A stretch of DNA of 64,000 nt, taken from assembly GCA_037349105.1 (NCBI GenBank), contig JAYJMM010000075.1, positions 1,054,001-1,118,000 of the forward strand, given 5' to 3'. Position numbers and translations under genes: made by a program. The notes beneath the pieces are model-generated. The model saw only the letters and a program-made list of their open reading frames with translations. It did no database searches and had not been told where the DNA came from. Positions 2,777 to 61,800 of this stretch are shown piece by piece. The stretch is from Limnomonas spitsbergensis. Its lineage: Eukaryota; Chlorophyta; Chlorophyceae; Chlamydomonadales. Within the stretch, counting starts at the first letter, position 1. The number at the start of each line of letters is the position of its first letter.

Positions 2777-5700
2777 ATGAGATCTATCTCTAGACTGCAC
2801 ACATCCAACTCACCTCGTTATCTTCTGTCGTCTTGCCGAACCATCTCCACAGGATCTTTCAGGATGGCCGCAACAACTGCTTCAATGCCGGCACAGAAGC
2901 TGATAGACGACTTGAATAACTCTTACGAACAGGTTCGTCAGTCCATTCCGTTCCGTTCCCACGCTAGATCTCCGGTGATTAACTTCGACATGAACTTTCA
3001 TGCATGCCTTCCAGATGCATGTTGCGTTCGAGAACAATTTCTGGTCCACCAAGGTCAGCATCAAACTAAATTGGGTTTAAGTCTCGTACGAGCCCCGCAT
3101 GAATGGCCCCTGATGGTCCGTAGTGGTGCTATTTTTTACATCATGCTTTCACTCAGTTTCAGGTTGAACCACCGGTATGAGTAGATTACCAAATTCTGGG
3201 TTTCATGCAACAATTTTGTCCTTGCAGATGGCGCTGAAGGTACGAATCTATGACAGGTTTGGCGGTTTTGTTTGATGGCAGCCATCATGAAGTACTGTAT
3301 TAAGTCCTTTCAAGGTGTCTAAATGCCATCCGCAAGCAAGCTTTGCATAGTTAAGATGATGCCTGACCTTGAAGGAGCCGGCCAGACCTCTGGCTTTCTG
3401 AGGGTTCTCCGCCTCCGCCAGCCTGCCTGCATTCTTATATTTACACCGATGACAGGGGAGCAGCAGCGAGGCCCTGGCTCGCACCAAGACGGAGTACGAA
3501 GAGTTTCTGGGTGACCCCGTCAAACTCAAGGAAGTCCGTGCAAGGATGCAGGTGAGCTCAATCCAGTGTTTCCTTTCTAGGCTACAAGATCACCTTCAGC
3601 AGGCCTCCCAGCACTGCGAAAGGCCCAATCGGGACTGTGTCTGGACCGGCCTGCAACTGGTGACCAAAGCAGCAAAGCTGGCCACAAATTGGGCCTCCTG
3701 CCAGCGGCCGGAGTGCTGATGACATGAAGCTGAGACACGAAAAAAGAAACACTGCCTCAAGCAGAGGTCACAGCAGCACTGCACGATGCTGGAAACCGGA
3801 TCTGAGCTGTTCTCCTTTTTCAAACAATTGTGTAAATCCCTCAGTAAATCCTGGCATGTGCTTCCAATATTTGGGTGCCCTACATCCCTGTCAGTGCTGT
3901 GCTGATTACGGAGGCTGAATTACATAGCTGACTTTCAATCACCGCAATTTCAAGGCAAATTCAAGTACTTTTACCAGTAAGGGACCGTAATTACTTACAT
4001 GATTTTTGAAATACGGCGCAATGGCACAGCACTGATCCCTGTGTTGTTTTGTGTGGGTGGCAGCGTATGTCCCGGATTTTCAGAACTGTCCTGTTTTGTC
4101 GTGCACCTGATGTAGGACCCGAACTTGACTGCGGATCAGCTCAAGGTCCTGAAGATCTTTGAGCGCACTTTCCAATGTAATATCATTGAAGATCCTTCCG
4201 CCAAGGTCTGTGGGGAGATGAGGGGATCTGTCATGACCAGTGCATGCAGGGGTCAGATTCTTGTTAGCCAGGGGGTGATGAGAGGCATAGGGTGGGCATC
4301 AATTAAGGAACCGGTTCATCACACTCGCCGACCTGTGCGGAACATCCTTTTTCCGAAAAAAGAAAATGGCAGATCAAAACGATGTTTTAGAATGAGCCCT
4401 GGGGCCAGGTATGCAAGATCTAATAAGCAGTCCCTAGCAGAGAATGGACATAATAATGCTCAAGAATGCAACCGAAACATGTTTTCTGTTGAGACCGGCC
4501 CTCGCCCTGAGCCGTATTCATTCTCGGTTGTCAGCATGATGTAGGCTATCAAGGTGGTGCATACAGAGCTTTTAATCAACTCATGGCAGACCAGTATTCA
4601 TTGAGTGATTGCAGATGTATTTGCATGCATGTGTGCCCGCTTGAGCACCGGACCAGGTGATTTGCTGATGACAAGGAGAGGGCAACCGGTCTACGTCTCT
4701 TGCACATGGCCGTTTGGCAATTCTAATTGAGGTGTCCCTGTGTACCCAGGTGGTTAAGGAGCGGCTGAACACGCTGGAGGCCGAGCTATCCGAGGCTCGC
4801 AACCTGCTGGCGTTGGGATACAAGGACCCAAAGGTACAGCAACCCCTAAATCCTGTACCTTGAAGGACCCAAAGGCGCAGCAAACCATAAAGCATGTACC
4901 TTAGGAAAAACCAAGGGTACAGCAAATCCTAAAACCTTGGACCCTAGAAGGTCATTCAGATGCAGGAAACCATCAACCCTGTACCCTTGAAGGACTCAAG
5001 GCGCAGCAAATCCCGAACCCTGTACCCTGTAAGGACCCGAAGGCTCAGCAAACCACAAACCCTGTACCATCGATGGACCTTTGGCGCAGCATGTCATAAT
5101 CATCAAATGCCAGCCTTTGTGCCGGACTGTATGATCCCTTTCAATGATGGACAGCTGATTTTGACAATGACGTCTGCCATGCATTAGCGCTCACCTGTGT
5201 ACCCTCCCGCCTGTTTCTCTGTCTTCATTGCAGGCAGGTGGTGAGTTCAAGAAGGCAAGCAGCGTGCAGCTCCGCAGCATCATGCGGGTCAGCGACGACG
5301 AGGCTTCGCGCAAGGCATGCTACGAGGTGGGGGCAGCTGGAAGTTGATTTCGAATGTAAATTGATAAGAAGTATCAGATTTTGCAGGTAATGGCTGGTAG
5401 GGTTGTCTTGAGGGAACCCAGCCATCTTGCTATTACATGAAGTGGGGGCAGCTGCAGGTTGGTCTGGCTGTTTTTGAAAGTGAATGCATGAAAACTGGTA
5501 AGGGCTGGTAGGGTGGTCATCAGTGTTTCTTTTCTCGTGTCTCAGCTACATGTTAGCTACACTCTGGCTACTGGCTAGAGACCCTATTCGTGGCCAGCCT
5601 AGCTGCTTTGGTCACTAGTTGCAGGCCAAAGGCCCAATCGGGACCAGGTATGGTCCCGATTGGGCCTCTGGCGGCTGCTGGGCGGCCTGCTTGTGTTAAA

Positions 5701-8700
5701 CTTGAAGCAGAAATAGGAAACGCTGGTTGTCATGCACGTGCTTGGTGCAGCCCTACTGCTCGGCATCGTGCCCTGAATCGGGAATTGATTCATGGACAGG
5801 CAGGTTGGAAGGTCAGACAGGCATGAACCTCTGGTGTTTGAAATCGCAGAAGCTCCGTTCGACAACTTTGAAATTTGCATGCTCTGCAGGGCATGCGCTC
5901 CATCGGGCCCTTTGTGGTAGAGCGCTTCATCGAGATCGTCAAATGCCGCAACTCGCTGGCACGCAGCCTGGGCTACATGGACTACTACGACTTAAAGGTG
6001 AGAGCGGAGAGCAACGGGTAAACCCTAATGTTGCTTCTTTTGCTTCCTTTTACGAGCAACGGGTAAACCCTAATGTTGCTTCTTTTGCTTCCTTTTACGA
6101 GCAACGGGTAGACCCTAATGTTGCTTCTTTTGCTTCCTTTTACAAGCAACGGGTAAACCCTAATGTTGCTTCTTTTGCTTCCTTTTACGAGCAACGGGTA
6201 GACCCTAATGTTGCTTCTTTTGCTTCCTTTTACGAGCAACGGGTAAACCCTAATGTTGCTTCTTTTGCTTCCTTTTACGAGCAACGGGTAAACCCTAATG
6301 TTCCTTATTTTGCTTCCTTTTACGAGCAACAGGTAAACCCTAATGTTCCTTATTTTGCTTCCTTTTACGAGCAACGGGTAAACCCCAATGTTCCTTATTT
6401 TGCTTCCTTTTACAAGCCTCCCTTGTCCGCAAAAAGCCTGTTTGGGATCATACCTGCATCGCCCAGCGGCCGTTGGTCCACGCAGCAAGGTAGGCCATGC
6501 ATGAGGTTAACCGGAACTGTTGCTGGATAGTTGCTCAGCCACGAAGAAGAAACATTGGGGGGTGGCGGTCGGATAGAGGGCATTGTGTACAGGACCTGAG
6601 CCTACGGAGGCTGCTGGCCAATAACGCCTTCCTCTCTGGGAGGGTAATACCTACAACGCTCAAATTAATTATCCACTGCCCTCTGGTTATCACTCTCCAA
6701 CGGATCATAAACCAACGCATGTTCTCTCTCAACATACGCTGCCTTTGTTCATCCCATGCCCGCCCTCGCCTGGCCCTCTCCGGATCCGCGTAGGTGACCA
6801 GCGCCGAGGGGTTCGGCAAGCTGCGTCTGTTTGAGATTCTGGACGACCTGGAGGCTAAGACCCGGCCCGTCATGACAGCGGCGCTCAAGGTGCTGGCGGA
6901 GACCAAGGGTGCATCGGCACTGGAGCCGCACAACATCTCCTACTCGCTGGCCGGCGACACTGAGAAGGCGCTGGACCCCTACTTCCCCTTTGAGGATGCG
7001 GTAGACGTGTGGGCGCGCACCTTTGCCGGGCTGGGCATCAAGTACCACGGGGCGACCATGACGCTGGACCTGTGAGATTGGGCTGGCGGCTAGGCATGCC
7101 AGGGCGTCTGTTAGGCAGGCCCAGGTGTCTGTAAGGCAGGCCAGGGTGTCTGTTAGGCAGGCCAGGGCGTCTGTAAGGCAGGCCAGGGCGTCTGTTAGGC
7201 AGGCCAGGGTGTCTGTTAGGCAGGCCAGGGCGTCTGTTAGGCAGGCCAGGGCGTCTGTTAGGCAGGCCAGGGTGTCTGTTAGGCAGGCCAGGGTGTCTGT
7301 TAGGCAGGCCAGGGCATATGTAAGGCAGGCCAGGGTGTCTGTTGGGTAGCCAGGGAGTCCTTGTTAGGCAGGCCAGGGCGTCTGTTAGGCAGGCCAGGGT
7401 GCTCAATGCCCTCCCTGTTGCCCTGTGGCTTCCAAAGCCTCCACATCAGCCATGCAGGCTTACCTGGCCAGACGGTCACTGGCTTGCCCCTTAGCTACGT
7501 ACCTCTTTTTCAGCTGTCTTATAGACCCTGCCTCTGACCGTCATTGCTTCCTTTCATGGACCGCTCTGCATAGAGGCGGGTCTTTGTATGTCCCCCTTCA
7601 CATTGGCGGATGGCTGGGTTGGTTTCTTTTAGTCAAAACTTTCAGAATTAATGATTTTCTTGGCAGTGTTTCTGCAATCCTTTGCAAGTGAAATGTGAGC
7701 TTTATTCACATACTTGTACGCCTCCTTAAGGGGGAGATTTTTTTTCTTTTCCGAAGTGCCATGTTTCCCTGGGATCCCCACCCTCCTCCCTGGCTGCATC
7801 CTCATAGTTGTGACCATCATAACAAACACAACAACGGCCTCCTGACCTGCCATTTCTCCAGGTCCCCCCTTTCCTCCCACCTTCCTCCCACCTTCCTCCC
7901 CCTTGCCTCCCACCCTCCTCCCACCTTCCTCCCAGGTGTGACCGTGACAACAAGTACAGCAACGGTTTCTGCCACTGGCCGCAAGTAGCTTGGCGCAAGC
8001 CGGACGGGTCGTTGACCCCCTCCCGGGCCAACTTCACGTCGCTGGCCACACCCAACCAGGTGGGTCCGCAGGAGCATCCTGTGGTGTCATGTGTACTTGT
8101 TTGTTTTGCTTGTTGTGGTATAGGCTTCGCAATGCCACTAAAAACATCTGGCGCCAGCTTATACCACAACTGCCTGCGGATGAGATGGGCGCCCATCTTG
8201 CCCGTACATTAGGCATGGTGCTGGTTTTAAACCTTCACTCAGCTCTGCCTTTGCCGGTGCCACTGTCTATTGAGCACTCGCACAACAACATTTGGGGCCC
8301 CCCTGGTGGCCACCACTGGCCGATAGGGGCCTTGAGCGGCCTGCGGCCAGTGGCCCAAGCAGCAAGGCTGGCTGCACCAGGCCCCCGTGACCTTACCTTC
8401 TGAATTGCCCTACGACACTGAGTGACCTGTACTCATGAGTCCTAATTCCGTTTCGTGTCCGCATAGGTTGGCAGCGGCCGGACAGCCCTGGTGACACTGC
8501 TGCATGAGGGTGGCCACGCAGCCCACATGGCCAACATCGACCAGCCGAGCCCCTTCTTCGGCCAGGAGCGTGCGCCCTTCAGCGTTGCCATGGCGGAGAA
8601 CCAGAGCATGTTCCTGGACGCGTACGCCAATGACGCCGCCTGGCTGGGCAGGTAGGCCATGCAGGTCTGGAGGTCGTTCTGCAAGAACCTCTCCTGCAGG

Positions 8701-11607: not shown

Positions 11608-12004
11608 ACGCTTGCCGGTGTTGGGGTTTAACCCCTTCGAATGGACGTGATGGATTGAGGATTCCACTACTAAGGTGGATGTTGCTGATGTTGGCGGGTC
11701 TGACTGAGCCGTTTATACATAGCAATACAGGGTGGATTGCCCTGGGAATTGCCTAGGCCTGTATACAGGCGGATTGCCTAGGCTACAATTTTGAAAGAAT
11801 CGAGCTGTTAAGTCTGATAAAAGATGTGTATGACATGCAGTGGCGTATGCAAGTTGAAACTGCTTTCCTGTACATTGGGATCTGCTTCACTCTCGCACCA
11901 TAGGGATCGATAACGGGACGGAATTTGATACTATTTCTACAAAAAACACGGCCTTACTTAGTTGCCGTTGGACTTGTCGGAAATCTGCAATCCAAGTCGA
12001 ATCT

Positions 12005-12055
12005 AGGTGCATCAGTTACACCTCTGGGCCCGCTCAAAGCTCGGCCACGTGCATC
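12005..12055 (+). repeat. family-B dispersed repeat
   Basis: Contains TTACACCTCTGGGCCCGCTC followed by AAAGCTCGGCCACGTGC. Confidence 0.65.
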
Positions 12056-12394: not shown

Positions 12395-12455
12395 ACCGTG
12401 CATATTCGCTGGGCCCTGCTGAATGCACGGCCGCATGGGGCTGGTAGGGAATGCC
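12395..12455 (+). repeat. family-B dispersed repeat
   Basis: Contains CGTGCATATTCGCTGGGCCC, TGCTGAATGCACGGCCGCAT and GGGGCTGGTAGGGA; closest to the copy at 38190. Confidence 0.65.
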
Positions 12456-12837: not shown

Positions 12838-15800
12838 ATGTCGGAATTTTCTGCGATGGGTCTCGCGGTCGGTGCGAAAGACGTGAACAGCAAGATGGAC
12901 GCCGATCCTCGGAACATTGCCGGACTCGTCTTCGTGATCCTGGTAATAAATTTCGAACCAACTATCCTGGTAATGACAACGCTCACCGCAAGCCACGAAT
13001 TCTGCTGCAGATCGGCTCCCTGGCTACAACTGCTGGCGTTGGCGGTGGGGCAATTTTCGTCCCCCTCTTCCAAGCCCTAATCGGATTCCCCCTCAAGGAA
13101 TCCACAGCTCTGTCCCAGGCCCTTATCACCTCTGGCGCACTGGTCTCAGTGTCCATCAACCTTTTCAGCCCATCTCCCCTCGACCCCAAGAAGCCGCTGA
13201 TCGACTTCACCCTGGTCCTGCTGTTGACACCCATGGTCCTGGTGGGAGTGTAAGTCGTACATATTAGATGATCTATCATGTTGTATGACTGCACCACGCG
13301 CATTACTGGCTTGCTGTTATTTGTTCTGTTTTGGGAATCTCTGATTGCATTGAATTTGTCAGGATAGGGCTGTCCTGCAACAGATCCCCCTACCATGGCA
13401 TGGTGGCTTTGAAGATGGACCCATGCAGGTATTCATTGTCTACCCCCTTCACCCAACAGAGGCAGTGGCCTTATGTTCAACTTGATCTTGCCATCCTACT
13501 CCATCTCCCTGGTGCTGCTGCTGCTGATGGCCGTCATGATATCGCAGAGCCTTGGGAAGGTGAATGGGGGCAGGCAGGACTAGATGCAGGATGAGCACCA
13601 CGACCACAATATGACACTTTCGTGATGATTTTGAAAACAAGTGTAAGGTGCCTTACAAAATCCGGCCAAGACGCTCTATCAAAAGCATTGCTGCACATAA
13701 GTTCCTGCGTGCTTGTCTTATCAGTGGGACCAGCGGCCTCCGGCTTCCAGGAGGGCTCTGTTGAATTAATAAGGAAGTGGGCTGCCTTCCTCAATGTAAT
13801 TAATTATTTCTTTACTAGTTTCGCTTACCTTAGCTCAGGCTTAACTTGGTGTGTTGACCGCTGCAGGGTGTTCGCATGTGGCAGGACGAAAATGATGTTG
13901 CGAGGTCTGCTGCAGATCACATCACCTATTCCATGGTCTCTGGTGGCGAGAGGGCCGGGGACGCCCCAGCTCAGCAGACCTCCCCCCTGAGCCATATGAG
14001 GACTAACTCGAAAGGGCTGCTGGGGCTAAAACACACAAGCTCTGCCGGGGACCTTGAGGAAGGCTCCACCACTCCACCGCTTCCGGACCTATTCCTTGCT
14101 CGCGGCAGACAGGCTGATAGCATCGGCCGTGCCTCTGTCCAGAAAGCAATACCGACGGAGACGAGCCCACTGCTGACGCAAGAAGCAGCAGCTTCGCCGG
14201 TTGAGTCACCTCGCAGAGACGCGCGGCCGGGCCATAGGACCATCTCAAGGCAGCCCAGCGCCATCACGATACAGCTGCGGTCCAACATCGCAAGCTCAGG
14301 CGCCCTACGACTCTTAATGGTTGGCGGCAACCATGCCGAGCTGCACCCTCTGCTGCACAGCCGGCATCCAAGTGGGGACCTGCCTGCCGCCTGGACAAAG
14401 CGCCGTAACGCGTGGATGTGGCGCTTCCTGCACAACTGCAGCGAGCATGTCGAGGTGGAGTCTGCCGCTCTGCAGCACAGCTTTGTAGCGGCCATGGCGC
14501 CGCACGAGGCTAGACAGGGCCACACCTTGTCACCGAGTGGGATGCACCGGCGGTGCCTGTCTATGCCTCTGCAGCACCAGGGGCCCCTGCTTTCTGCAGA
14601 TGCTATGGCGGCAGCTGTGGTCCCCCGCCGCGCGTGGCAGCGTCCGGATCCCGACCACTGGCAGCTCACTGCCGGCCGCAGGGACAACAGCTTGCTGAAG
14701 CTGCTGGTCGAAGCCGAGGCAGCACCATCCAGGCTCGTTCCGGATATCCCAGACAGTGCTGCGCCTGCTCTGACCCCAAGCTACTCCAGCCTGTGGGTGC
14801 ACATGCGGAAGGGATGGGCGCGTGTGCCCAAGCCGTTGCTGTTGCTGCTGACAACCTGCTGGACCGTTAACGTGGCACTGGAGGTGACCAACGGCTTGGT
14901 GACGCGCTGCTCGGTGCTTTACTGGAGCTTGATGGCTGCGCAGATCGTTGTCATGCTGGCATTCAGTGTGTGCGTGGCCAAGTGGCTCGCGAGCGAGGCG
15001 AAGCAGCAGCGGGAGGACGAGGAGCAGGAGTGCGTGGATATGCTGGCAGGCATGGACACGGAGGCTGTCGAGCGTGAGCAGACCTCGGGAGCGGCATATG
15101 AGGGGGACAGTCCGTTCGCGATGTATGCGCAGGATGAACGGGCCTGGACAGCAATTGCTGAGGATCAGCAAGGGATGGAGGAGGAGGAGGAGGGGGAAGT
15201 GGCTGCATCTCAACCAAGCCTTTTGCTCTTTCAGGTGTTTGCGCTGGTGGCCGGCTTCTTAGGTGAGATGGGTGAATGAATAATACCAGCCGTTACCGAT
15301 ATGCAAGAAAATGTAGACACTCTTTTCATAAATAAATATCACCCTGCCAATCTGCCATAAAGTACCGGTGCCGGTATTCAGGGAATAAATTACCCCCTGA
15401 GGGAATTTAAGGAATGAATCATGCCCTAATAGATGGTGTCACTGTTCAAGGAACATCTGCTTCTATCACAGGTTGACACGATCACTATCTTAAGAAGAAC
15501 TTTTGTCGGTGCCACGACTGAATAGTATTAGCAGGGAGAACATTTTAGGAATTCTGGCAGGGTTCATCATGCTCCAATACTGCCATGCATAGGGCTGTCA
15601 TGAGGACCGACAAACAGAAACAAATAGAGAGCATAGACATCCCTGATCCATCATGCCTCTAAAGCTCGTGCATTGCCACACGTGCCCTGCAGGAGGCCTA
15701 CTCGGACTGAGTGGAGGCACTGTGGTTGGCTTGATGCTCCTTGAGCTGGGTGTGCACCCTCAGGTGACGCTTTGTAATTTGTATTATAAACTTGTTTCTA

Positions 15801-16904
15801 GCTCCGGTAGAAACATGGGAAGTCCACCCCTTTCAGCCCAATGCCAGGCTCAAGCAGGCTATCATCCAACAAGGTGCATGCAGCTTGCTATAAGCGACGA
15901 GTCAGCTGAAAGGCAGCCATCAACAACATAGCATGCTCACCTACATAAATACAGGGCCCAGAGGTGTGAAGTCATTGACCTACATAAACACAAGCAAGCC
16001 CGTCTATGTACTGAATGTATCTTACCTGAGTCTGTCTCCCATGCTTTCTGCAGATTGGCGCAGCAACCAGTGGCTCAATGGTCCTCATCTCGGCCTCAAC
16101 GGCGCTCGCCACATTGGCCAGTGCAGGCCGGCTGAACCTCCAGTACGCCACGGCCTTTTCATTGGCCAGCATGGTGTCGGCACTGCTGGGATCGCTCGTC
16201 ATAGGAGGGTGAGTGGCTTTATTTTAGTGTGCACCAGTCACAATAAGCTACACCACGGCACACAACAGAGGCGGCTGTCACAGCTAGCCCTGCTGCTTGG
16301 GCCGCTGCCTGGTAAAGGATTGGTCTCCATCGGCCCTCTGCTTCCCCTCAAAGGTGACCTGGTGCGCACTTAACAATCACCGGTGTCAGGACCCAAGAAG
16401 TATGTGGCAGGTAGGACTCTGCTGAAGGGAGAGATGGCTCCTAGGGTGGGTGTCTTAGACAGGTCCCATGCACCTTTTGGTACCCCAGGGACTGGGAGAA
16501 CTGGAAAGGGATCAAGGGTCAAAATATAAGCCAGCCCACAGCATCTTACCTGTATTCCTTCATGAGGCACTACCAGTGCACAATTCAATTACCGTTATGC
16601 TAAAAGTCCACCCATAGTTTATCACAGGAAACTTAGGAGCAAAATACGGCCCACTATAGAGCCCTAACATACCTACCAGTTACAAATAAAAAGGAGTTAT
16701 ACATACCTGTGCGACCCTGCATAATTACTGCTCTCACTGTTTCGTTGTAGGGCCATTCGACGGATGGGACGGTCATCCCTGGTGGTATTGGCGCTGGCAA
16801 CTGTCATGATCCTAGGGGAGGTAGCAGTCGGTAGCTTTGCATACATTGAGATCATGGAGGCTGTGAGGGATGGCAACTTCGGGCTGACGCATTTGTGCCC
16901 CTAA
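12838..16904 (+). CDS. TauE/SafE-family membrane anion permease with a large central loop
   Basis: Seven exons in phase: 12838-12942, 13011-13249, 13460-13559, 13867-15262, 15693-15763, 16054-16208 and 16751-16904, giving 739 residues. The N-terminal half has the repeat signature GSLATTAGVGGGAIFVPLFQ and several helices; the C-terminal half has the matching GGLLGLSGGTVVGLMLLELG followed by GAATSGSMVLISASTALATL. These are the two half-domains of plant and bacterial TauE/SafE transporters, predicted to export sulfite or organosulfonates. The halves are separated by a hydrophilic insert of roughly 300 residues (about 160-460), nearly all from one 1396-base exon, with no recognised domain. The length exceeds the usual 400-500 residues of plant members. 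Intron 1 is only 68 bases. The substrate is inferred from family only. Confidence 0.85.
16240..16370 (-). repeat. family-A dispersed repeat, reverse copy (TauE intron)
   Basis: Contains CTGCTGCTTGGGCCGCTGCC, TCTCCATCGGCC and AGGTGACCTGGTGCGCAC, the reverse complement of the family start. Confidence 0.65.
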
Positions 16905-17667: not shown

Positions 17668-19356
<1,689 letters not shown>

Positions 19357-20670: not shown

Positions 20671-23600
20671 TCATCCTTGGAATAGCACAGCTTGGAGAAG
20701 GGGCATAGTTTGGAGCTGGGAGATGTCCGCCATCACGTCGAAGACCTCACTGCTGCTTTGACATGCCAGAATCACTTGCCGCCTACACAGCAAGTGCACA
20801 TAACTATTCAGCTTTCTCAATGGAATACAGCCTGAAGGGTACAGGCATCACAGCAGACAAGCAGAGCACCTTTTTCTTTTCACATTGATAGGAACAACAA
20901 AACAAACTGCTGAGAAGAGGGACAGGGTCAAGCTAAGGCAGCTTCTTACCTGAAGCAAACAATGGCCACTGCCATGAGAGGCAAGGGCAGCAGGGAGTCA
21001 AGGCCAAGCACTCTGTCCCACAGCAGAAGGACCTCCTCCATGTGCAGATGTCCAGCAAAGGCTGAGCATATCCAGGGTACGGCCAGAGCAGAGATGGGCA
21101 GACCCAGGCCATGGACATGAGCCACCACCTCGGGATCCAGCTCCTGAGGGGATATTGCAAGAGAATATTGAAATCAGGAGAGTCGCATAGACTTTCACAT
21201 ATCTCAACCTTTGAGTTCTTGTTGTTTGGTGGGTGAACTTGCTATCCTTTCTTTCCTCTTGTGCCTTCTCCCTAGACTTTCCTAGCTGACTTTTTGTTGG
21301 CCGACCTGGCCGAACTTCATTTCAGCATGGCCCAGAGGTGTCACGTCGTTAACATATCACAACCGATAGGCACCGTCGCTTCAGCACATCCATTGAAATT
21401 AATTACCTGCAGGAGCTGCTCGTACGTCTTGATCAACACAGGCAAGGCTGGGCTTTGGCCAGAAACCGGAACGAGGCTGTGGAGCTTGCACCAATACCTG
21501 CATCGCGATTGAAAGAGTGATGAAGCAGCAGTACCTCCCCCTGAAACTGTTATAAAGCAAGCATGAATGTACCTACTGGTAAGTTAGGTCAGTTTGAAGG
21601 CATCATCATCATTTAGAATTGCACCTACCGACAGTATAGGGACCTCAGCAACCGAAACACCGCCGCTGGATGTTCATACAGGTAACATAGAGGTGCAGTC
21701 AGGACAGCGAGCCCGCGGACCGGCAGTAAGCCGTTTGGGACTGATTGCTGTGCTTTATCGGCACTCGCTCCGCTGGGCATTGTAGATGTGGATGGCCCTT
21801 CTCTCCTCGTTCCAGTTCGCTGCTCCACCGATGTGCGGCTCGGCACTTGGTGGTCCCTGGCAAATGCCAGCAGCACTGCCCTGCATGCCCCACGACACTG
21901 TTAAATTTAGTGAGCTTTTAAAATGAGGGACCTTCAGCTATAATTCAGCGGCATGGGGGCCGGGAGCATATGGGCCGGGTGCAGCAAGCCCAGCTACTTG
22001 TCCCACCGGTCAAGATTTGGTACCCATCGGGCTAGTGGTGGCTGACTAGCAGCCAGCCAAAAGTGGTCAGGTGCGCACCAAAACAAACACAGCCTGTTAT
22101 GACATTGCAATGCCAGCGTGCTATTCAGTCATCAACGGTAAAGAAAATACTAGGGCTACCCATGAGCATGACCCTTAATGCACGATGCACGATGAACGAT
22201 AAGAAAATGCTTGGCCAGGAGTCCGCACCTGATCAACTCCTCGAACAAGAAGAAGTGCTCGGAGTCTGATATGGACTCCACATCTGCACATATCGCAACG
22301 TCCAGCAGCGCCTGCCTCGTCAGCGCTGCATTGCACAGCTCCGAGTACTCCTCCAGGTCCTGCGGCCTCAGAGGCGGGAGACACAGTGCAGCCTCCCATA
22401 AGAAGGGGCGCACGCCCTGGGGCGCTCCGAATCTGCAGCTCATCACAGAAAGCACATTGTGGGAATGGCAAGCACATTGAGGGAACTCCGAATCTGTAGA
22501 GCGCATTGAGGGAGCGGCGAAACTGAGGGAGAAGAAGAGCACAGAAAGTACATTGAGGGAAGTCCGAATCTGCAGCATATCACAGGAAGCACATTGAGGG
22601 AAATCCGAATCTGCAGCATACCGTATCACAGAAAGCACATTCAGGGAACAGCAAGATAGAGACACTTGAGCAGACCATGTACAATGAAGAGTAACTCAAG
22701 CAACCTATTTTCCAAGCACCAGTTGCCCTGGTGCTCGGGGCATAATGCTATGCTTCAAAAAAAAGCGGTTGAGTAGAGGAGCTCAGGCATGGGTGAGGTC
22801 ACCTGAGGAAGGAGCGGCACATAGGCCCTGAGCGTTCCTTCAGCAGAGCTCGCGCGGATCGGAGCTTGACGTCTTTGAACCACGGGTGGTGCCGGTCGTC
22901 CACACCAACCTGCGTTATCACAGAATGAAGGAACATGGCTGGGCCCTCAGTTGATGATCGACCTTTTACATCATGGGTCAGGTACTTCGTTAACACTTAC
23001 AACAAGCCCTGGATCAGTGCGCTGGCTGCCTGGTACTCCAGTGTCTTTTTTAGGGAATAGTATACCACTATCAGCTACAGTTCAGCTACACTGTGCCCCC
23101 GCCACAAGCCCCTGGTGCAGCCTGTCCTGCTACTTGGGCCACCAGCCGGAGGCCGGTCCAGGTTTGGTGTGCATCGGCCCAGGGGTGGCCGCGTGGCGGC
23201 CTGGGAAAGGTGGTCCGGTACCCACTATAATGGACACAGTGGTACTCACGTGGCGCTGCTGCGGCCGCAGGTCAGCAAACAGGGTCCTTAGAGTGCTCAG
23301 GGCAGGTGCCTGCAAGGTGCGCAGAGCTGGTAGGAAGGTGACCAGGCCAAGTGCCCAGGGCATGCCGCCCCTGTTTGCCGGGGCCGTCGAAGAAGTGGGC
23401 TGAGGAGGCTCCTGCGCGGAGAACGCAGGCAGGCCGTACAGTTGCATCATACATCACGCAACGCCCAGTCGGATGTAGTGAGGCATTCGGGCAATGTTTC
23501 CATACTGTTTATGAGGGACCGATCAGATCAGGGAAGGGGCAAAGGATGTCCTCGCTGCTCACCCTGCCCATCTGCCCTGCCAGTGCCAGCAGGATTTCCA

Positions 23601-25455: not shown

Positions 25456-25496
25456 CGCTAGGAGCTTTGTTCACTCTAGTCTGTACCATATACGCT

Positions 25497-33440: not shown

Positions 33441-33443
33441 AGG

Positions 33444-40748: not shown

Positions 40749-43469
40749 ATGCAAGGTCGTTTCCGTTGCTTGGGCGCTCGTAGCTGTTTCTCTAGAAGTC
40801 CGTGCGTTCCACCCGTTAGAAATGCTACAAATCTGAGGTGGCTGAGATGCAGCGGGCGCGACCTTAACTCTCAAAGTGGGGAGGAGTCCGCCGGGGAGTC
40901 CGCTGCGCAGTCAGTCCGAGCAGGCTTGGAGAACTTGTTCACAGTCTCCGTGAATGAACCTTCCGTCCCCGTTTCATCCATGCAGCCTACCCGCTGGCCC
41001 AGTGTGGACTGGTGAGGAGTGTGCATGGGGCCCTTCAAACCATGACAGCACTCCATGCCTTGCAGCCCTCAACAGGAATGCTTAATTAAGTGAACAGCAT
41101 GGTCACCGAATGCTTTCCCTGGTGTTTTTTGTGGTTCTGGTTGCGACCTAATTTTCGTGCCTGCCTCAAACAGGTCACGGTATCATTTGCAGCTCCTTTT
41201 CGTTGACAGGTGAGACAGGTCACCGATAATGTTGGTGCTTGTCCAGGGTGGTTGTGGTGAGTTTGGTAACTTTTTTGTAGCCCCGAAGAACTCCATGAGT
41301 ATCTTCCCTGTGTTTAAGAGACCTGTGTAGGTACTGCGGTATGAAACACTGACTGATACTGGTAAATTGAGTCAGATTCAGATTTATTTCCCAGAGGCAC
41401 TGTTGTTGAGTGTACTCTTGTTGATCTGCCATTACCTGGTTATACAGTATACACATGATTTCCCATCAAACGCTGTGATTCATAGATCAGGGTCTGTACG
41501 GTCACGATTCGCAGCCGGGTTGTTTGAGCGGATTGCTGAGTGGAACGGCTGGAGCAGAGCCCTCATACCCTCGTCCTGTGGCCTGCATGCGGACGATGCT
41601 GCGGACGAGGGCAGAGAGACCAGCGTCTCAAAAATGGCAGCCATCTTCAGCGAGGGTTCATCCTTGGTAAGCTGCTGCTTATAAACTTCTCTGTCCCCTT
41701 TTATTTTGATATGCCACAAGCGGATGTTATTACTCGGCATACCGCAGACATGTCAAACCTGTCTGGTAGAAACTTTGACCCAGCTACATGTGATACTCGT
41801 GCAACAGTGTGACCCATCTGTTCCTCTTCCCGTGCAGGGACTGTGGACGCGTGGCCTGGCCAGACCAGTGGAAATGTTTGACACTGCTGACCTGGATCGA
41901 TACGACCTAGTGCTGGTGAGTTTTAGCACGCACAAGTGATAACACCCCATAATTGACAGGACTGGCTATCATGCTAGCATGCACCTGTCGGGCATTCTTC
42001 CCTTCAGTTTTGTTTTCCGTGGCTCACCAAACGTGCAGGCGTTCAGACACACCTCTGCTCACTAGTTACTACCGGCCTAAGGCCTGATACTTGACCTACC
42101 ATGCTGTTTGGGCCGCTGGCCATAGGTCTGGACCACCTGGTTGTTATTGGCCAAGGAGCGGCTTACCAAATGTGGGCTTGTCGCTGGGGAAAACTCAACC
42201 CCTGTTGAGTACCTACTTGTGACTGGCCCTCATGCCTACATGCGAGCTCAGGTTCTGGACCGAGATCTTCACAATGAGATGCTGAGCCAGGTGCCAGCAG
42301 AGCACTGGGAGCACTACAACAATAAGGTAAGACTCAGACTCAGATCGCTGCTTTAGTTCAAAGAGGCTAGTACAGGTCGTGTATGGACTATGAAGGGTGG
42401 GCTCACTTAGTCACAAAAATCTCCATACTGGTACAATGCAGAAGTGGTGATGGTAGTCCATGGCAGAAATACGTTTCAGGGCAGGTGCTGGTCTGGGCCA
42501 GTTGAGCAAATCCTGCCCCAATCGCACGCTTTGCAGATTTGCTTGCTCACCTGCTTCAGCGGCTATGAGAGCGAAGGCATCATGCTCGCAAAGGGCGGCT
42601 TTGCGCTGCTGCCCATGCAGCTTTCGTGGATCCTGAGGCAGGCATTTTCATCATCGAAAATGGTGGGTTGGTGCAATGGCGACTGCCGGGGGAGGGCTGG
42701 GTAGCATGGCATGCTTCAGGCTTGTCCCTCACTTTAAGTTTACAGTCCATTTGTGAGGACAAGGATGTCACTTGCTCATTTGCCGTCCGGGTCCTCTGTT
42801 CCGGACAAACGAGACAACCAATGCGTATGCCTGATGTATACTGAGATTACTGTTGAGCTATAAGCTATCTTTGTCTACGCAGATTCTCAACTTTTCTATG
42901 TTGCTAGCAAGTTTGATCGAGACAGCTCAAATTCGTCACATTTTCATCTCAAGTCTCGGCCCCAAGATTTCTTTACTTCAGTTTCATTGGGGCACAGAAG
43001 GGGCATGGGATTTGTACCTGCATACTATTTCGGGTACTCGTACAAGATGAGACAGATATAGCCAGTGTAAGTTCAGAGGTATGATTACTGGTCAATGTCC
43101 TGCCTGTTTTTTCTCCGTTATTGAATGACTTCCTCACGTCTTCAGGTGGTCGATGTGCCATCCCCGGACTTTGCCTCGACAACCAGCATCGAGGAATGTA
43201 GTGCCATGGTAGGTGCTACTGCATGCCAGATGAATAGCAGGGCTGCATGCAGCACAAAACCGTCTAGCATGTGTCCACATCTGACAGATTGCACAGGCTC
43301 CTCATGTCTGAATGTACCTTAGTGGATCTATCTTACTGTTCTTGCTTACAATGTCACCCCCTGTTGTCTGGTGTAGGTGAGTGCGCTCATCCTCTCGTGT
43401 GGTGGCCTATGCAAGTATCTCATGGATAGCCACCCGGATGATCTGCCGGACTACGATCCCGTGGATTGA
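40749..43469 (+). CDS. low-molecular-weight protein tyrosine phosphatase-like, plastid-targeted
   Basis: Eight exons in phase: 40749-41011, 41193-41209, 41491-41666, 41838-41915, 42252-42326, 42537-42662, 43146-43208 and 43377-43469, giving 296 residues. The first about 60 residues are rich in Arg, Cys and Ser and fit a chloroplast transit peptide. The body follows the LMW-PTP order: VRSRFAAGLFERIAEW (after the P-loop), SCGLHAD, RGLARPVEMFDTADLDRYDL, VLVLDRDLHNEML and a C-terminal VVDVPSPDF. The family removes phosphate from phosphotyrosine using Cys in CxxxxxRS. In my model the P-loop region reads SFSLTGSVRSRF, without Cys at the expected place and one residue short; it depends on a 17-base exon that fits phase exactly but is otherwise unsupported. 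Either the enzyme is inactive or that small exon is wrong. Confidence 0.7.
42050..42170 (-). repeat. family-A dispersed repeat, truncated reverse copy (PTP intron)
   Basis: Contains TGTTTGGGCCGCTGGCCATA and GGTCTGGACCACCTGGTTGT. It creates an AG/GT that mimics an exon start but breaks the frame. Confidence 0.5.
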
Positions 43470-50249: not shown

Positions 50250-52009
<1,760 letters not shown>

Positions 52010-53107: not shown

Positions 53108-55414
53108 TTATGCAGTGGTGACTAGGTAGGAGGCTGGGAACTTCTGCCGAACCAGCACTGCAGCTAGATTTAAGATATCCGAAGACCAAGGGCCCACGTT
53201 CCCGCCGTGGCCCTTATCGTAGCTATGCGCTGAATGCATGCGCACTTTCTTGTTGCGATCCATCAAACCGGTCGTCCATTCCATGATGCCCCCACCCAAC
53301 ACCAGGGTATCTGCGCTGATGCCGCTGCCGCGCGCCTGCTGCTGCAACTGCCAGCATTGCAAAGCACACACGGTGGTGCTTAGTAGAGGAAAGCTGAACT
53401 TCAACAGATACAAGATCCATGCCAAGATGTTGAATGTGAAAACACAAAGCACAAACAGCACGCAATTGTGTGAAACTGAGGAAAGCTGAACAGCATTAGA
53501 TGCAACATCCTTTGCAGCATGACATCAGTAAAAAGGCAGAGCACATAACATGCATCGTTGCTACGTTGTGGACAACATAACTCCATGAGATACAAAATGA
53601 ACCTAGGCCAGCATGACAGATGCGAAAAAGCGCCACATTTCAGGAGTTCAAGCTATTCTAGAGTGTGGATCTGCGCTCACATGCAGCGCGCACGTCCACC
53701 CCTCACCTTCAAATTGGTGTGCTCTATGATGGATGCCTCTGTTGCCTGATTGCGGCCGTGGACCACAATCTGCTGCCGGCCAGCCTGGTCAAAGACCTTC
53801 ATCACCACAAAGCAGAAGGTGCCCCAGTCGTCCACCTCCACGGCAGGAATAAGGCTGCCAGCCCAGGTCGGCTCCCCGGCAGTCCCTGTTGACCTTGCTG
53901 CTTGCCACCTCAGGTCCGCTTTTATCTCTAACTCCCGGCCGTGCTGGGCCAGTTTCTCAGCGCGTCTGTGCAGGGAGCTCAGCTCACGAGTCGCCTCCAT
54001 TCCCGCGGGACGGGACCAGCCTGTGGAGTCGGCCTCCTCAGACAGCATTGCCGTGTCAAAGCCGACCAGGCTGCCGCTGTTGAGGCTGCTGACCTTCAAG
54101 AATGAGGAGGCATCCGAGTTCTTGCTCCCGACCATCTGCATGTTCCATCCAACGCCCCCCCCGGCCTGCAGCAGCTGCAAAGCCTCGTCCGTCTTGTCGA
54201 CAGCCCTGCCTGCTTCATCCGGGTCAATGTCGCGAGTCTGCTCAGCGTTCCACCTCCTGGCAAACTTCCATCTCCATGCGGCACCCGCAACATCCTCGTC
54301 TTTCTGTCCTGCAGCATGCACTGCCATGGCTGCGTCCTTAGTGGCCTGCATGTCTCTGAGGCCCCGAGTCACGATGGAGCTGGTGGACGTGTCGGTGTGA
54401 TGACTATGGGCGGCCTCACAGGGCTGCTTGGCGTGGTGCACTTGTCTGTTGGCCCAGGTTCCCAGCGGGAAAGGACGGCTGTTGATAGCAGTAGGGCCCG
54501 TCTGTCTGCCTGTCGGCATGGCGCATTGAGTTGGTGATGATGGAGGTAACGCGATGGACGGATCTGATGATGAGCGAGCCATTCCAAGCCTGCCAGCCTG
54601 TCCGTTGCGGTAATCCTGGAGGGCAATAACGGGGCATTTGAGTTTGCAGCAACGTTTTTGCTGCAGCCCTGAAACAATGGGCTTGTATTTCTTACATGAT
54701 CATAGGTAGAAAAAATGTAGTGACAGGTGCATTCGAAGGGGATCAGTTATGAGCAGATATTCTCTTGGTGCGTACCAGACCACCTTGGGGGGCTGCCGGG
54801 CAGCCACCGCAGGGTCAGTTGCGACCAAAACATGACTAGTTTACTGCCGGTGGTCTGAGCAGGAGCGCTTGCTGCACGGCTCTGGGCCATGATGAAGCTG
54901 AATTGAAGCTGAATCACGGTAAAAGAAACACTGCTCATGAGCCTGCGTGGTCCCTTGGATATATTCATATATAGGAGAAGAGGACTTTTTCTTCTCCTTT
55001 TACATGGTTCACTGTTGGGACAAGAATTAATACGAAGTCACGGGAGTGCCAGCTTACCATGTGCATGGAAAAGCGAGGCACCTGTTGCATGGCGGCCGTT
55101 GAAGCGTGGATATAGGGACTGGCATAGGGAGATTCGACCAAGCTACATAGCGAAGGTGAATGATATTCATCCGAGAGCCAGGGATCCTCCCGTCCGGACA
55201 TGCCCGCCTCGCCTGCGCCAGACTGGGGAGCTGAAATGCTCTCTGGACAAATACCAAACCTGCATGGTAGGCACCCCATGTCAAGATCCATGATATGATA
55301 GCAGCCAGTGGTCAGTGCTCATGCAGCCCTCAGTCTTGGCACTTACCATTTGTCAGTCCAAACGGTGCACAGCTGAGAGACTTCAAAATGCTCGTTTCCG
55401 ATTATTGAAGGCAT
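53108..55414 (-). CDS. protein with C-terminal PHPT1/Janus-type domain
   Basis: Four exons on the minus strand in phase: 55347-55414, 55058-55259, 53707-54615 and 53108-53347, giving 472 residues. The first about 340 residues show no known domain and are rich in Ser, Ala and charged residues. The C-terminal about 130 residues resemble the phosphohistidine phosphatase/Janus fold: IPAVEVDDWGTFCFVVMKV, then QIVVHGRN, then LVLGGGIMEW and a final LAAVLVRQKFP. PHPT1 removes phosphate from phosphohistidine; the human enzyme is only 125 residues, so this is an extended form. In a simple alignment the catalytic His (in the EYHADIYDKV block) falls on Ala. The start ATG at 55414 is the first in frame after an upstream stop. 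It is divergent from the RNA polymerase III gene. Confidence 0.65.
54770..54935 (+). repeat. family-A dispersed repeat (PHPT-like gene intron)
   Basis: Begins GTACCAGACCACCTTGGGGG and continues with CTGCCGGGCAGCCACCGCAG, ending with GCTGAATCACGGTAAAAGAA. Confidence 0.8.
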
Positions 55415-55831
55415 GCGAGCCACTCCACTAGCGGAGAGTATGCGGGCATTCACGTCTTCAGGGGGGGCGGCCGAGAAAGCGAAATTCTCTACGCTATGAA
55501 AGGGTTGGTGGGCTGGGAAGTGAAGTCCGGCAGCCACGAACCGTGGCACGAGTTCAAAATCAAGTTAAGGCAGTGGATACCTCTCCTACTGGGAGTTATG
55601 AGGAGTTAAGGCGGTGCAGGGAGTGGAAATGTAGCAATGTGGGAGGCGGACACGGTTTAGCACCGGAAGTGGATTCGGAGCCAGCTGAGTCGGCTGATGC
55701 GGCCAAGGCCCCGAGACAGTACCTCGACAGCCACGCCTCCTGGCTGATCAAGCTTCCTCAATCTTCAAACTGCTTTATCAATCCACCTGGCTTGACCTTG
55801 GCGACGGCTCCGTGAGAGGTACCTTAACTAG
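55415..55831. promoter_or_regulatory. shared region between divergent PHPT-like and RPC2 genes
   Basis: This 417-base gap separates opposing start codons and should contain both promoters. An open frame at 55543-55815 on the plus strand lies in the presumed RPC2 leader; it has no domain and may be an upstream open frame or chance. Confidence 0.4.
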
Positions 55832-58800
55832 ATGATGGACGTCGACAGCGGGGGAGGCGACGTCTGTGCGAAAGAGGACAGCCTCTATGACCCCACTAAG
55901 CTCACCGACCCCATCAAGAGCGTAGAGGACAAATTCCAGCTGCTGCCAGCCTTCCTCAAAGTCAGGGGCCTGGTGAAGCAGCACATTGACAGCTTCAACT
56001 ACCTGATCAACCACGAGCTGAGGAAGATTGTGCATGCCAACGAGAGGGTCACATGCGATACAGATCCCAACTTCTACCTCAAGTGGGTCCAGAGCATGAA
56101 CCCTGCCCCATGACAGGGGAACTCCGCACGCAGCAACAGGGGGGGGCCATGGCTACAGCTTACGAAGATTGAGAACGTCGAAATACTGCATGCTTAGAAC
56201 AATTGCCAACGACTCCCTACTAACCCGGCTACTTGCCCCTCAAGCGCCACATCTCAGATAATGACGGATGTCCAACTTGGTGCCCGCCCCGACTGTGCAC
56301 CAGTCTCAAATGTCAGAATGAATAGTAAAACGGACAGTTTTGTAAATGATGCCAGCCATGCGTGCTACCTGGTTGAGCCTGTGGTTGCACCGCGCTAGTT
56401 GCCACATGTCCCCTGATCCGCTGGCCGGCTGCCCCCCCAGGTTCCTTGACATCTTTGTGGGCCGGCCCAGCGTGGAAGAGGATATGGTGGCGACCGACAT
56501 CACCCCGCAGCAGTGCCGGCTGCGAGACATCACCTACGCTGCGCCCATCACCGTGGACATCGAGTACACGCGTGGCAAGGAGATCGTGGTCAAGAAGGGG
56601 CGCAACGGCCAGGGGGCCGTCTGCATTGGCCGCATGCCGCTCATGCTTCGATGTGACAGGTGAGCGCAGAAGCAGGAGGAGCAGCGCATGGGCGCTGAGC
56701 ATGCAAAGACCATGTTCTTCATGAGTGCTGCATTAGCAGGCCTGTTTACCCGGAAGATCAACCACGTTTGTTCTGAAAGCACCCCTCCTCCACAACCATG
56801 TCAAAGCTTTATACCCACAGACGCCCCTGGGTGCGGATTATAAATAAACCTTTTTGTATCTTCCTGGGGCCTTTTATTAGGTCTTGCATGCACAGCTTAT
56901 GACTCACGTCCTCACGGTTGTCTGTCATTCATGACCTTGATTCATGACTGGCAGGTGTGTTCTCTACAACAAGAATGAGCAACAGCTGGCCAAGCTGGGG
57001 GAATGCCCGCTGGATCCCGGGGGCTACTTTGTGATCCGCGGCACTGAGAAGGTGAATGGACACACAAAAGCTTGAGTTCGGACCGCTCATTCGCCCGGAG
57101 CTTCTCAGCATCCAAAAAGGTTCCCTCCACGCCAGTGTTTATTTTTATGAGCACGACACCACCTTGGGCAATCTGCTGGGTAGCCACCACTGGGTCGATG
57201 GGGATCAAACCTTGACCGGCCTATGGCAGGTGACCTAAGCAGCACAGCTGGCTGTAGCAAACCCTTACGGACGCAAGCCGTGACGTAGCTGAAGTGTAGC
57301 TGAAGTGCCCCGAGGTATACTGTGCTCCTCGCTTGTCTCACCTGCCCCCGGTTGTCCCTGTCCTCCTGATGCTACCCCAGGTCATCTTGATTCAGGAGCA
57401 GCTGAGCAAGAACCGCATCATCATTGATATGGATAGCCACGGGGAGGTGTGCGCCAGCGTCACCAGCAGCACACACGAGCGAAAATCCAAGACCAACATC
57501 GCCATGAGCAAGTCTAAGATGTTCCTCCGGCACAATGCATTCCAGTAGGTGGCAACAACCTCAACATGCTTCAGGAGGTTGCTCAAGCAAACCGCAATGC
57601 ATCGTAGCATGTTGCAGCAAAGGATGCATGCTCCATGATATGTATTAGACCAAAGACATGAAAATATTCGAAAAGTGTGTGGCAACCAATGCACGCCCCA
57701 AATGCTTTTAGGCACAACACGTTCCTGAAGGTGACAGGAACCAATGCGTGTCAATTAGATTTGCAGGCCTGTGTTGCAGCCCTGAGAAAGGGTGGCACAC
57801 TCTCCTTGCCCTCCGATTGCAGGCCGTCACAGTCACGCCTATTTCATTTTGTTCACGACGCCGACACCCCTCGCTGGTTCAGCCCCCTCTCCTGCCACCT
57901 AGCGCTCGATGCATCTAGTGGTAAAGCACGACCCTCAGCTCAACATCATCCCCCCCCTCTCCACAGGGAGGACGTGAACATCGTCGTAGTGATGAAGGCG
58001 ATGGGTGCTGAGAGTGACCAGGAGATCATTCAGCTGGTGGGGGAGGAGGAGGCGCTGGCCATGCTGCTGGTGCCCACCATACAGGACTGCAAGCAGAAGG
58101 GGATCTTCACGCAGAGCCAGGCGCTGGACTACCTAGGTGTGTGGGGGGGGGGGCAAGTGGAGGGTTTTGAGGGGGAAGGGTTGAAAGGTAAGTGCTGGAC
58201 TACCTAGGTGTGTGGGGGGGGGAGCAAGTGGAGGGTTTTAAGGGGGAAGGGTTGAAAGGTAAGTGCTGGACTACCTAGTTGTGTGGGGGGAGCAGGTGGA
58301 GGATTTTGAAGGGGGAGGGTTGAAAAAAAAGTGAAGTGCTGGACTGCCTTGATGGGGAGGTGGGGCGGGTTGAGGGTTTTGAGGGTTGAGGGTTGAGGGT
58401 TGAAAGCTTGTTGGGCTGCCTAGGTGAGGTGGGGGGGCGGGTTGAGGGTTGGAGCGAAGTACTGGTTGCCTGGATGAGGTGTGGGGGCAGGGCCGTGAGC
58501 CCAGCTGGGCCTGATGACGAGAGGGCCGGGAACTGGCTGGGGCTGGGATAGGGAGGCCGGGTTGCCAGATCAAGCCCCAAATGAACCAACAGAAAGCTGG
58601 AACCTGCAGACTAGACCTGGGGAAATGGTCGGGAAGCCTGAATATGGCTTGATCGCCACGAAGCTGCAAAACGTGCCTGGCAAGAAGATGTTCCTGTTTG
58701 ACATACAGACTTTTAAGCAAAATCTGCTTTCTCCCGGACGTCCTCTGGAAAAAAATTCCAAGGACCATTAACCAGGGGGCAACTCATCATGCTCTGCGCT

Positions 58801-61800
58801 GCGTTTGCGGGTAAATGCATCCGTCCCTGAGGGCTGCTGCTGTGTCCATGCCCTGTTTGCCCAGGCTCCCAGGTGAAGGCCAGTCCGCGCTTCTCTACTG
58901 AAAAACGACGCAAGAGCAAGGTGGACGAGGCTCGAGACATCTTGGCACACGTTGTGGTCTGCCACGTCAGCGCACCCAAGTACAACTTCCAGCACAAGCT
59001 AGCGTGAGTGCCTGACGCAAAGGCGGTGGATGAGGAGCTGTCTGCCTCATCCCCCCTTCCACGCACATTGACAGTAGGACAGCTTGCCTTGTCCAGTCCA
59101 GAGGCAGTCAATTGGCGAGACGTGCCCCGGTGCCCTGCAGGGGCATGGACTTTGCCTTGCTTTCCTGTCCCCCCTTGAGAGCGTGACCTGCAGGATAAGT
59201 ACGCGTGCGTCTAAAATGTGTTTGCAAACCACCACATGTTTGTTGTCTCAAGGCTGCATCTGCTGTGGTGCTCTTAGTTGCAATGCGCCTGAAGGTGCTG
59301 GCAGCCATGCTGAGGGGCACTTTGGTGGTAAATTAAGGGGCATATTGGTATTGATGATAAATTGAGGTGCATATTGATCTTGATACTCATAGTGAATTGA
59401 GGTGCATATTGATATTGATGGTAAGTTCCTTTGCTAACTCTTGCGCTGGACCTAAAGGTACGTCGCGGTCATGCTGAGGCGCATGCTCATGGCGGTGCTG
59501 GACCCCTCGTTCGTGGACGATCGCGACTACTACGGCAACAAGAGGCTGGAGCTGGCAGGTGTGCATGATGGTGTGTGCATGACGTTGTGTTTGTGTGTGC
59601 ATGACGTGTGTCTGGGTGTGTCTTTGTGCATGAGAGAGGAGGGCGTGTGCATGAGAAAGGAGTGCCTGTTTCGAAGAACGGAAACAGGTGTACATTCGAA
59701 GGGCCGTGCCCGACATGGAGGCAGTATAGGAGCAGGATGCTACCTGTCCTGCTCAGGAGTTTTTCGCTGTCATGCCTGTCAAATCTGACGTGCTTGAATC
59801 ACATGCAACTGGTGCAAGCATTCTTGCTTGCACGCCCTGTGTGCCTCAGGCGCTGCAAGAGCTCCAATGGGATTGACCCACAGGTCCCCTCGGTCACGAC
59901 CTCTCTGGCCCCTGACCATTCCACCTCCACGATACTGCCTACCTGCATGGGATTGACCCACAGATCCCCTCGATCATGGTTTCTCTGCCCCCTGACTCCC
60001 TGTCCCTTAATCCTCCACGACCTCGCCTGCTTGCATGGCCTATTGCAGGTGGCCTCATGTCACTGCTGTTTGAGGACCTGTTCAAGCGCCTCACCTCGGA
60101 CCTGAAGCGCATGGCGGACTCAGTGCTGTCCAAGGCCAACCGCGCGACGCTGTTTGACGTGGCCAAGTGCATCCGAACGGATACCATCACGTATGGGCTG
60201 GAGAGCTCGCTGAGCAGTGGGAACTGGATCATCAAGCGCTTCCGCATGGAGCGCAAGGGGGTGACGCAGGTGGGGAGGGTTTCAGGCTTTAGCAGGGAGC
60301 GCAAGGGAGGGATGCAGGTGGGGAGGGGTTGAGGGAGCGCAGGGGAGTGATGCAGGTGGGGAGGGTGTGGCTGTGGAAGGCTTGACCTTGGAGGGTGCAG
60401 GTGTGCAGAGGCCCTCAACTTTCGATATCTGGGTGATGTTGCTCCCCGGCCGATGGGGTTGGTGATGTGTTTGCTAGGCCCGTGGAGAAGTGCAGCTGGG
60501 ATGCTGCAGGACCCGTGATAAATGGGCAAGTACAGCAGAGAAAGGCAATATAGCAGTTAATACGGTAATATATTCTAGAGAATTTGAAGCGGGACGGAAA
60601 GGTTAAACAAATACAAAAATCTCATCGTGTGGGTGAATATGATACCGGTACTTAAGCTCAAAATATTGACGATAGGTGTTTGACAAGGCAAACTTGTTCA
60701 TGAAGCGAGTATGTCATATAAAATGGCGCATGCTGATTTTGATACTGCTGCCTTGTTTTTTGCCGCCGGTCCAGACTGCTGCCTGTTTGTTAATTCGTAG
60801 TTTATACTAATGCGTGCAGGTGCTGTCACGACTGTCCTTCATTGCCGGCATGGGCATGATGACTCGCATGACCAGCCAGTTTGAGAAGACTAGGAAGGTA
60901 AGCCGCGTATGCCCGACTCTCTGCTGCGGTTCCTGCTCTAGGTGGCTCAGCTGTAGGCATGCAGCCATGCACGCTTTGGCATGCACTGGGCCATGCACGC
61001 TTAGGCATGCAGCCATGCACGCTTAGGCATGCAGCCATACACGCTTAGGCATCCAGCCATGCACGCTTAGGCATGCAGCCATGCACGCTTTGGCATGCAC
61101 TGGGGCCATGCGTGGCTTCTCTCGGGTAACATACCTGACTGACCTCAAGTGACAGTCCCAGCAGGTTGCATGCCTGCGTTTCTAAAGAGTCAGGGTCCAA
61201 CTGTGCTCCTCCGCCTTCCCTGCACCCCAGCGCCCCCGTGCTGATCTTCAGGGTCACTTCCCTGCACCCCAGCGCCCCCGTGCTGATCTTCAGGGTCACT
61301 TCCCTGCACCCCCAGCGCCCCCGTGCTGATCTTCAGGGTCACTTCCCTGCACCCCCAGCGCCCCCGTGCTGATCTTCAGGGTCACTTCCCTGCACCCCCA
61401 GCGCCCCCGTGCTGATCTTCAGGGTCACTTCCCTGCACCCCCAGCGCCCCCGTGCTGATCTTCAGGGTCACTTCCCTGCATCCCCAGCGCCCCCGTGCTG
61501 ATCTTCAGGGCCACTTCCCTGCACCCCAGCGCCCCCGTGCTGATCTTTAGGGTCACTTCCCTGCACCCCCAGCGCCCCCGTGCTGATCTTCAGGGTCACT
61601 TCCCTGCACCCCCAGCGCCCCCGTGCTGATCTTCAGGGTCACTTCCCTGCTTGCGTCTCGGCCGCTGGCCTTACCCGCACCCTAAGTATACGCTTCAACG
61701 TCCCAATCTATCAGCAACGATACCCCTCTGGGCCATGCTCAAAAGGCTCGGCCGCGTGGGCGTCCAACGTCCCCATTTTTCTCTCTTGCTCTTGTGCATT

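Follow-up and report, generated by a model that had tools for sequence, protein, structure and literature searches.

Tandem repeats lying across exon-intron boundaries have been described in a few systems, with which we compare our case. In human genes of segmental duplications, internal tandem repeats with a mean unit of 30 bp occur at exon-intron boundaries, vary between paralogues and are tied to alternative splicing (PMC2812944). In potato RdRp, a tandem duplication across an existing intron-exon boundary gave rise to a new intron (PMC4974935), and tandem genomic duplication carrying a splice-like AGGT has been proposed as a route to intron gain, a repeat shared by donor and acceptor being its predicted mark (review PMC3443670). 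The related literature includes Drosophila cases (PMC2891723) and a Chlamydomonas comparison (PMC8226300). Here we describe copies of splice junctions inside adjacent introns of the RPC2, M3 peptidase, TBC, beta-tubulin 2 and TauE genes in a 64,000-nt stretch (1,054,001-1,118,000) of contig JAYJMM010000075.1 of the green alga Limnomonas spitsbergensis (the window). As in the human genes, units of minisatellite size (35-71 bp in the clear arrays) lie across boundaries and change intron structure; unlike there, RPC2 and M3 are among the genes that hold them, and they are known from genomic sequence. The likeness to potato RdRp ends with the duplication across an existing boundary, since here an existing intron was lengthened and no new intron was seen. 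No publication on junction-spanning repeats in this alga was among the matches listed, in a search that left subscription literature mostly outside its scope. As far as the sample shows, the junction repeats are real, frequent and an ordinary result of intronic tandem duplication, and reflect neither a process directed at junctions nor the birth of introns.

Direct repeats (ungapped, at least 18 bp, score at least 14) were found inside 32 of 109 introns, compared with 0, 1 and 1 of 109 in dinucleotide shuffles. The first-pass annotation of this DNA had proposed tandem duplication as a cause of intron enlargement, and these counts show enlargement by local duplication to be common in the sample. 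An exact 11-mer taken across the donor recurred in its own intron in 7/109 cases (0.06 expected from other introns at matched length), and, with any repeat counted, 10 donors and 8 acceptors were spanned among the 109 introns. Some duplicated tracts do, as had been suggested, take in a splice junction and leave decoy sites behind.

The sample consisted of the window and 188 kb from five other stretches of the same genome (labelled C20, C30, C40, C50 and C85), 252 kb altogether. Gene models were obtained with our own hidden-Markov gene finder, built without RNA. Its first settings gave 1172 introns in the 252 kb and were discarded as over-predicting; the second run, used here, predicted 207 introns with a median length of 294 bp. 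The final set comprised 106 of the 206 predicted introns with full flanks and three that were set by hand, namely RPC2 intron 5, the last M3 intron and the intron with the TBC acceptor, for which the gene finder had chosen another acceptor. The window contributed 68 of the 109 introns, C40 25, and C20 and C85 8 each; false gene-to-gene joins, the virus-like C30, repeat-rich exon models in C40 and most of C85, and weak models in other places were excluded. Family or homologue backing was available for the retained RPC2, M3, TBC, SWI3-like, CobW, helicase, reticulon, patatin, TauE and beta-tubulin genes and for one with a glycosyltransferase domain, whose match spans 46 residues within a model of 16 exons. 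One C20 gene and a phosphatase-like gene at 41874-43468 had no family match; a second C20 gene resembles the first by eye, and genes without such a match account for 12 of the 109 introns. A minority of the 109 introns had their junctions individually aligned to a homologue. The exons beside these introns have a median length of 120 nt and do not exceed 250 nt in 195 of 218 entries, each inner exon being entered twice; 73 of the 109 introns are longer than 250 bp. The M3 protein is nearest to those of chlamydomonadalean algae (79% to Chlamydomonas eustigma), and a PDB search with it gave no match. L. spitsbergensis belongs to the same clade as C. eustigma, has 54.15% GC, and full-length transcript (IsoSeq) reads have been reported for it (PMC11228838).

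The first-pass annotation had regarded splice junctions as the preferred substrate of copying. We compared junction-spanning windows with their own intron in the 77 introns of at least 200 bp, taking 16/20 matches as a copy. A copy was found for 13/77 donor windows and for 9/77 acceptor windows, while windows centred in the intron interior gave 8-16 (mean 13.2) and 7-14 (mean 11.8), respectively. Before the TBC acceptor was corrected, the values were 13 vs 13.2 for donors and 8 vs 12.0 for acceptors; without the repeat-rich C20 and C85 (window and C40, 65 introns), they were 7 vs 7.6 and 3 vs 6.4. A wider set, 148 of the 206 predicted introns (those of at least 160 bp), gave a profile of the same shape, with only 0-0.3% copies in other introns. 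None of the intron profiles had a peak of self-copies at the junction. The comparison with exons came out differently: windows centred 40-60 nt inside the exon had copies in 4, 2 and 2 of 64 cases on the donor side and in 4, 2 and 1 of 61 on the acceptor side. Junction blocks are thus copied more often than exon interiors, as would be expected if selection removes changes in exons, but no more often than intron interiors, and a preference for junctions is not upheld. For intron segments, this is the outcome that the first-pass annotation had itself named as refuting its reading.

From these results, a likely explanation may be put forward. Introns would undergo frequent local tandem duplication, the copies being shifted by tens to hundreds of bp and some duplications growing into minisatellites, and breakpoints would fall irrespective of the splice junction. 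Selection would then remove duplications that alter the coding sequence; a retained duplication would either lie wholly within the intron or reach into an exon end with an outer splice site intact. We infer that uniform breakpoints may be the mutational rule, through slippage or repair, with selection on exons and exon definition acting afterwards; the junction copies would probably be a harmless by-product of small tandem duplications that can arise anywhere in introns.

Protein homology points to use of the outermost splice sites. With the proteins read through the upstream donors, no gap opens at the intron 5 and intron 8 junctions when RPC2 is aligned to its human and yeast counterparts, nor at introns 6 and 7 when M3 is aligned to the protein of C. 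eustigma; the outermost site of TBC likewise fits its homologue. It is because these sites still fit the protein that we consider the junction copies probably harmless. The inner RPC2 donors lie in frame and open, at +51 nt in intron 5 (58137-58188) and +48 nt in intron 8 (60270-60317), and their use would add 17 and 16 codons. The decoys show no sign of erosion: GT was intact in 17/22 donor copies (17.3 expected from flank identity) and AG in 9/12 acceptor copies (9.2 expected), counts that come from repeat alignments of 10 and 8 introns, respectively, and are not independent, as several copies stem from one intron. Within these 22 donor and 12 acceptor copies, decoy GT/AG did not decay faster than neighbouring bases. 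Site strength was rejected as the reason for the choice of the outer site, since 5 of the 17 GT-keeping donor copies match or beat the real donor in score. Hence neither purging of decoys nor site strength explains the outer choice. A rule of cross-exon proximity has been described for exon definition: where two strong donors are identical, only the upstream one is reported to be used (PMC9225289). Given the short exons and the preponderance of introns above 250 bp, this rule would favour the upstream donor here. It could explain the choice of the outer among identical duplicated sites, although it was derived from human-type data and minigenes. Of the introns with spanning repeats, 16/17 are longer than 250 bp, which is not evidence in itself because length and duplication are confounded. 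RPC2 intron 8, with three CAG/GTGGGGA donors (slashes mark boundaries), and TBC, with four AG/ATTCGGA acceptors, offer natural tests of spliceosomal choice among equal sites, and full-length transcript reads are reported for the species (PMC11228838).

Several observations weigh against breakpoints blind to the junction and the choice of the outer site by exon definition. When the best event per intron was placed uniformly (34 introns), 4.1 donor-spanning and 4.1 acceptor-spanning events were expected and 7 and 4 were observed, so that donor-spanning events lie nominally above expectation (Poisson P 0.12 for donors and 0.20 combined). Copies that begin no more than 2 nt from the donor, as in M3 intron 7 and beta-tubulin 2 intron 3, are not a prediction of uniform breakpoints, and six of the ten donor-spanning introns have their longest exon overlap at 12-15 nt, a clustering that may be chance. 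Acceptor windows are somewhat scarce, most clearly in the window and C40 (3 vs 6.4, as above). The inner GTAAGT sites of RPC2 intron 5 score 7.0, compared with 5.2 for the donor supported by homology, and intron definition would point to the inner donor in an intron as short as that of beta-tubulin 2 intron 3 (196 bp, with a neighbour of 146 bp). The donor excess, the two copies that start at the donor and the recurrent exon overlap would also suit a process tied to the exon-intron boundary, such as a transcription or repair event that copies the junction block into the intron. We consider such a process improbable, as every profile lacks a junction peak and the acceptor counts equal or fall below expectation.

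The AGGT route to intron gain had been linked to these repeats by the first-pass annotation, and the duplicated AG/GT exon ends at RPC2 introns 5 and 8 agree with it. Its prediction, a likeness between the donor and acceptor regions within one intron, is not borne out: at 12/16 matches or more, the likeness was found in 0/109 introns, with 1.2 expected from pairs of different introns, whereas the model places a donor-acceptor repeat there. The beta-tubulin paralogues, located ~31 kb apart in opposite orientation (17671-19270 and 50250-52009), have intron positions in common. At the position of beta-tubulin 2 intron 3, beta-tubulin 1 carries an intron of 100 bp (18606-18705) with one copy of GTAAGCAACCTGT, against 196 bp and two copies in beta-tubulin 2, the only pair of paralogues for which repeat copy number was compared. 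Local alignment of these introns scores 35.5 vs a maximum of 17.5 in 500 shuffles, and they are thus related. A score for beta-tubulin 2 intron 3 with an 84-bp block removed, which rose from 12 to 46, proved to be mostly a gap-penalty effect, was left unused and was replaced by the copy count and the shuffle test. Since beta-tubulin 1 has a related intron there with a single copy, the intron should predate the duplication; judged by its paralogue, beta-tubulin 2 intron 3 is a pre-existing intron that has been enlarged. For the 109-intron set, intron gain by tandem duplication carrying AGGT is therefore largely refuted, and we give it very little credence. Junction repeats should not be read as scars of intron gain without an intron-interior control.

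Insertion of dispersed mobile introns (introner-like elements) into the repeat-bearing introns would call for copies elsewhere. The repeats of M3 intron 6, beta-tubulin 2 intron 3, TBC and RPC2 intron 8 matched only themselves in the 260-Mb genome, in a search that skips simple repeats and very common words. The fifth repeat searched, that of RPC2 intron 5, had 67 further genome matches, all of them through its GGGTTGA-rich (telomere-like, G-rich) tail. No evidence in support of such elements was found, and this origin is scarcely credible. Several introns contain what looks by eye like a dispersed, inverted-repeat-like element (GGCCCAATCGGGACC / GGCCTGC...).

Another explanation holds that the transcribed, spliced DNA of some genes duplicates faster than adjoining intergenic DNA and that junctions are caught at its margin. 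Among 23 spans from Tandem Repeats Finder (TRF) that were listed for the window, two of which overlap, the 25.5 kb of introns hold 18 and the 18.4 kb of intergenic DNA a single one; the other 4 are exonic or unassigned. Internal repeats were found in 12 of 66 window introns of at most 1200 bp and in 0 of 47 length-matched intergenic pieces in the first tiling (Fisher 0.0012), with 0 also in the other four tilings. With C40 added, the first tilings gave 18/88 introns vs 2/64 intergenic pieces, and in C85 repeats occurred in 6/8 helicase introns vs 1/10 intergenic pieces. However, C40 alone shows a weaker difference (6/22 vs 2/17), and long intergenic arrays reverse the pattern in C20 and C50, where 2974/3098 and 1378/2773 windows, respectively, are repeated. 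The repeats also cluster strongly by gene (RPC2 6/10 introns, M3 5/17, glycosyltransferase-like 0/15, TauE 0/7; permutation p 0.006), so that introns are not independent. Furthermore, intergenic pieces may be constrained by untranslated regions and promoters, and their limits depend on our own gene models. Being concentrated in RPC2 and M3, weaker in C40 and reversed in C20 and C50, the excess of introns over intergenic DNA is a lead only, and faster duplication of introns is possible but rather unlikely. The bolder form, in which a process linked to transcription or splicing duplicates intron stretches in some genes and spares intergenic DNA, while exon-definition splicing shields genes with identical sites stacked three or four deep, seems more doubtful still. 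If the excess were true genome-wide, it would bear on intron growth in long-intron algal genomes. C20 and C50 are largely tandem-repeat DNA.

All seven repeats named by the first-pass annotation are present in the sequence; Table 1 gives them together with an M3 intron 8 minisatellite and the inverted-repeat-like element. That the copied block spans an exon end is correct for five of them (M3 intron 6, RPC2 introns 5 and 8, TBC and TauE) and not for beta-tubulin 2 intron 3 and M3 intron 7, where the copies start at the donor. Head-to-tail units of at least ~10 bp lie across the junction in M3 intron 6, RPC2 introns 5 and 8 and TBC. The first-pass annotation had also supposed that junction copies may seed the minisatellites nearby; the arrays of M3 intron 6 and RPC2 intron 5 include the junction copies among their own units. 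The duplications had been taken to be recent, which agrees with the 94/97 identity of the RPC2 intron 5 units and with the segment at 50876 in beta-tubulin 2 intron 3, found again at 50967 with identity over 33 nt of intron plus 2 nt of exon. It does not hold for the M3 intron 6 array, whose units have only 69% matches in TRF. The protein junction at this intron, GYKDPK/AGGEFKK, aligns ungapped to the C. eustigma protein. In M3 intron 7, GTGGGGGCAGCTG occurs at 5327 and 5442, copied with practically no exon, and the gapped alignment scores 32 vs a maximum of 20 among 300 mononucleotide shuffles. The copies in RPC2 intron 8 lie at +48 and +86. In the TBC intron (22433-22802, minus strand), three CT(G/A)(C/T)AG/ATTCGGA copies, each with 7 exon nt, precede the acceptor supported by homology; the exon join through this last acceptor reads CRSFLRFGAPQG and resembles CRSFCRFGVPHG of the homologue P0121.

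Table 1. Junction-spanning repeats and other repeat features of the window (TRF, detected by Tandem Repeats Finder).
Feature	Position	Strand	Description
M3 peptidase intron 6 donor array	4822..5068	+	TRF; 41-bp unit x ~6, first 12 nt exon
M3 intron 7 repeat starting at donor	5325..5523	+	13-bp exact and longer degenerate repeat, shift 115
M3 intron 8 minisatellite	6009..6417	+	TRF; 45-bp unit, 9.1 copies; close to donor, not across it
TauE intron 1 double 11-mer	12937..12974	+	ATCCTGGTAAT twice; 6 nt of the 11-mer exon
TBC acceptor and three upstream decoy acceptors AG/ATTCGGA	22425..22660	-	41-bp-type repeat
Beta-tubulin 2 intron 3 donor-side copy	50874..51012	+	segment repeated 91 bp downstream
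RPC2 intron 5 array	58123..58403	+	71-bp unit including 14 exon nt; extra GTAAGT donors at 58188 and 58259
RPC2 intron 8 repeat	60244..60370	+	three CAG/GTGGGGA donors; 22-26 exon nt copied
Inverted-repeat-like element	3601-3720, 5600-5700, 8320-8390, 16260-16350, 23100-23210, 57190-57260		by eye

Outside the window, the two uncharacterised genes of C20, mutually similar by eye, are separated by long tandem-repeat DNA (~4.4-35.8 kb of the join), and their introns also bear junction-spanning repeats. The C30 stretch (G000:C30:400001-440000) is gene-dense, with large, mostly intronless open reading frames that by eye include topoisomerase II-like, RNase III-like, DEAD helicase-like and DnaJ-like ones, and resembles an integrated giant-virus segment.

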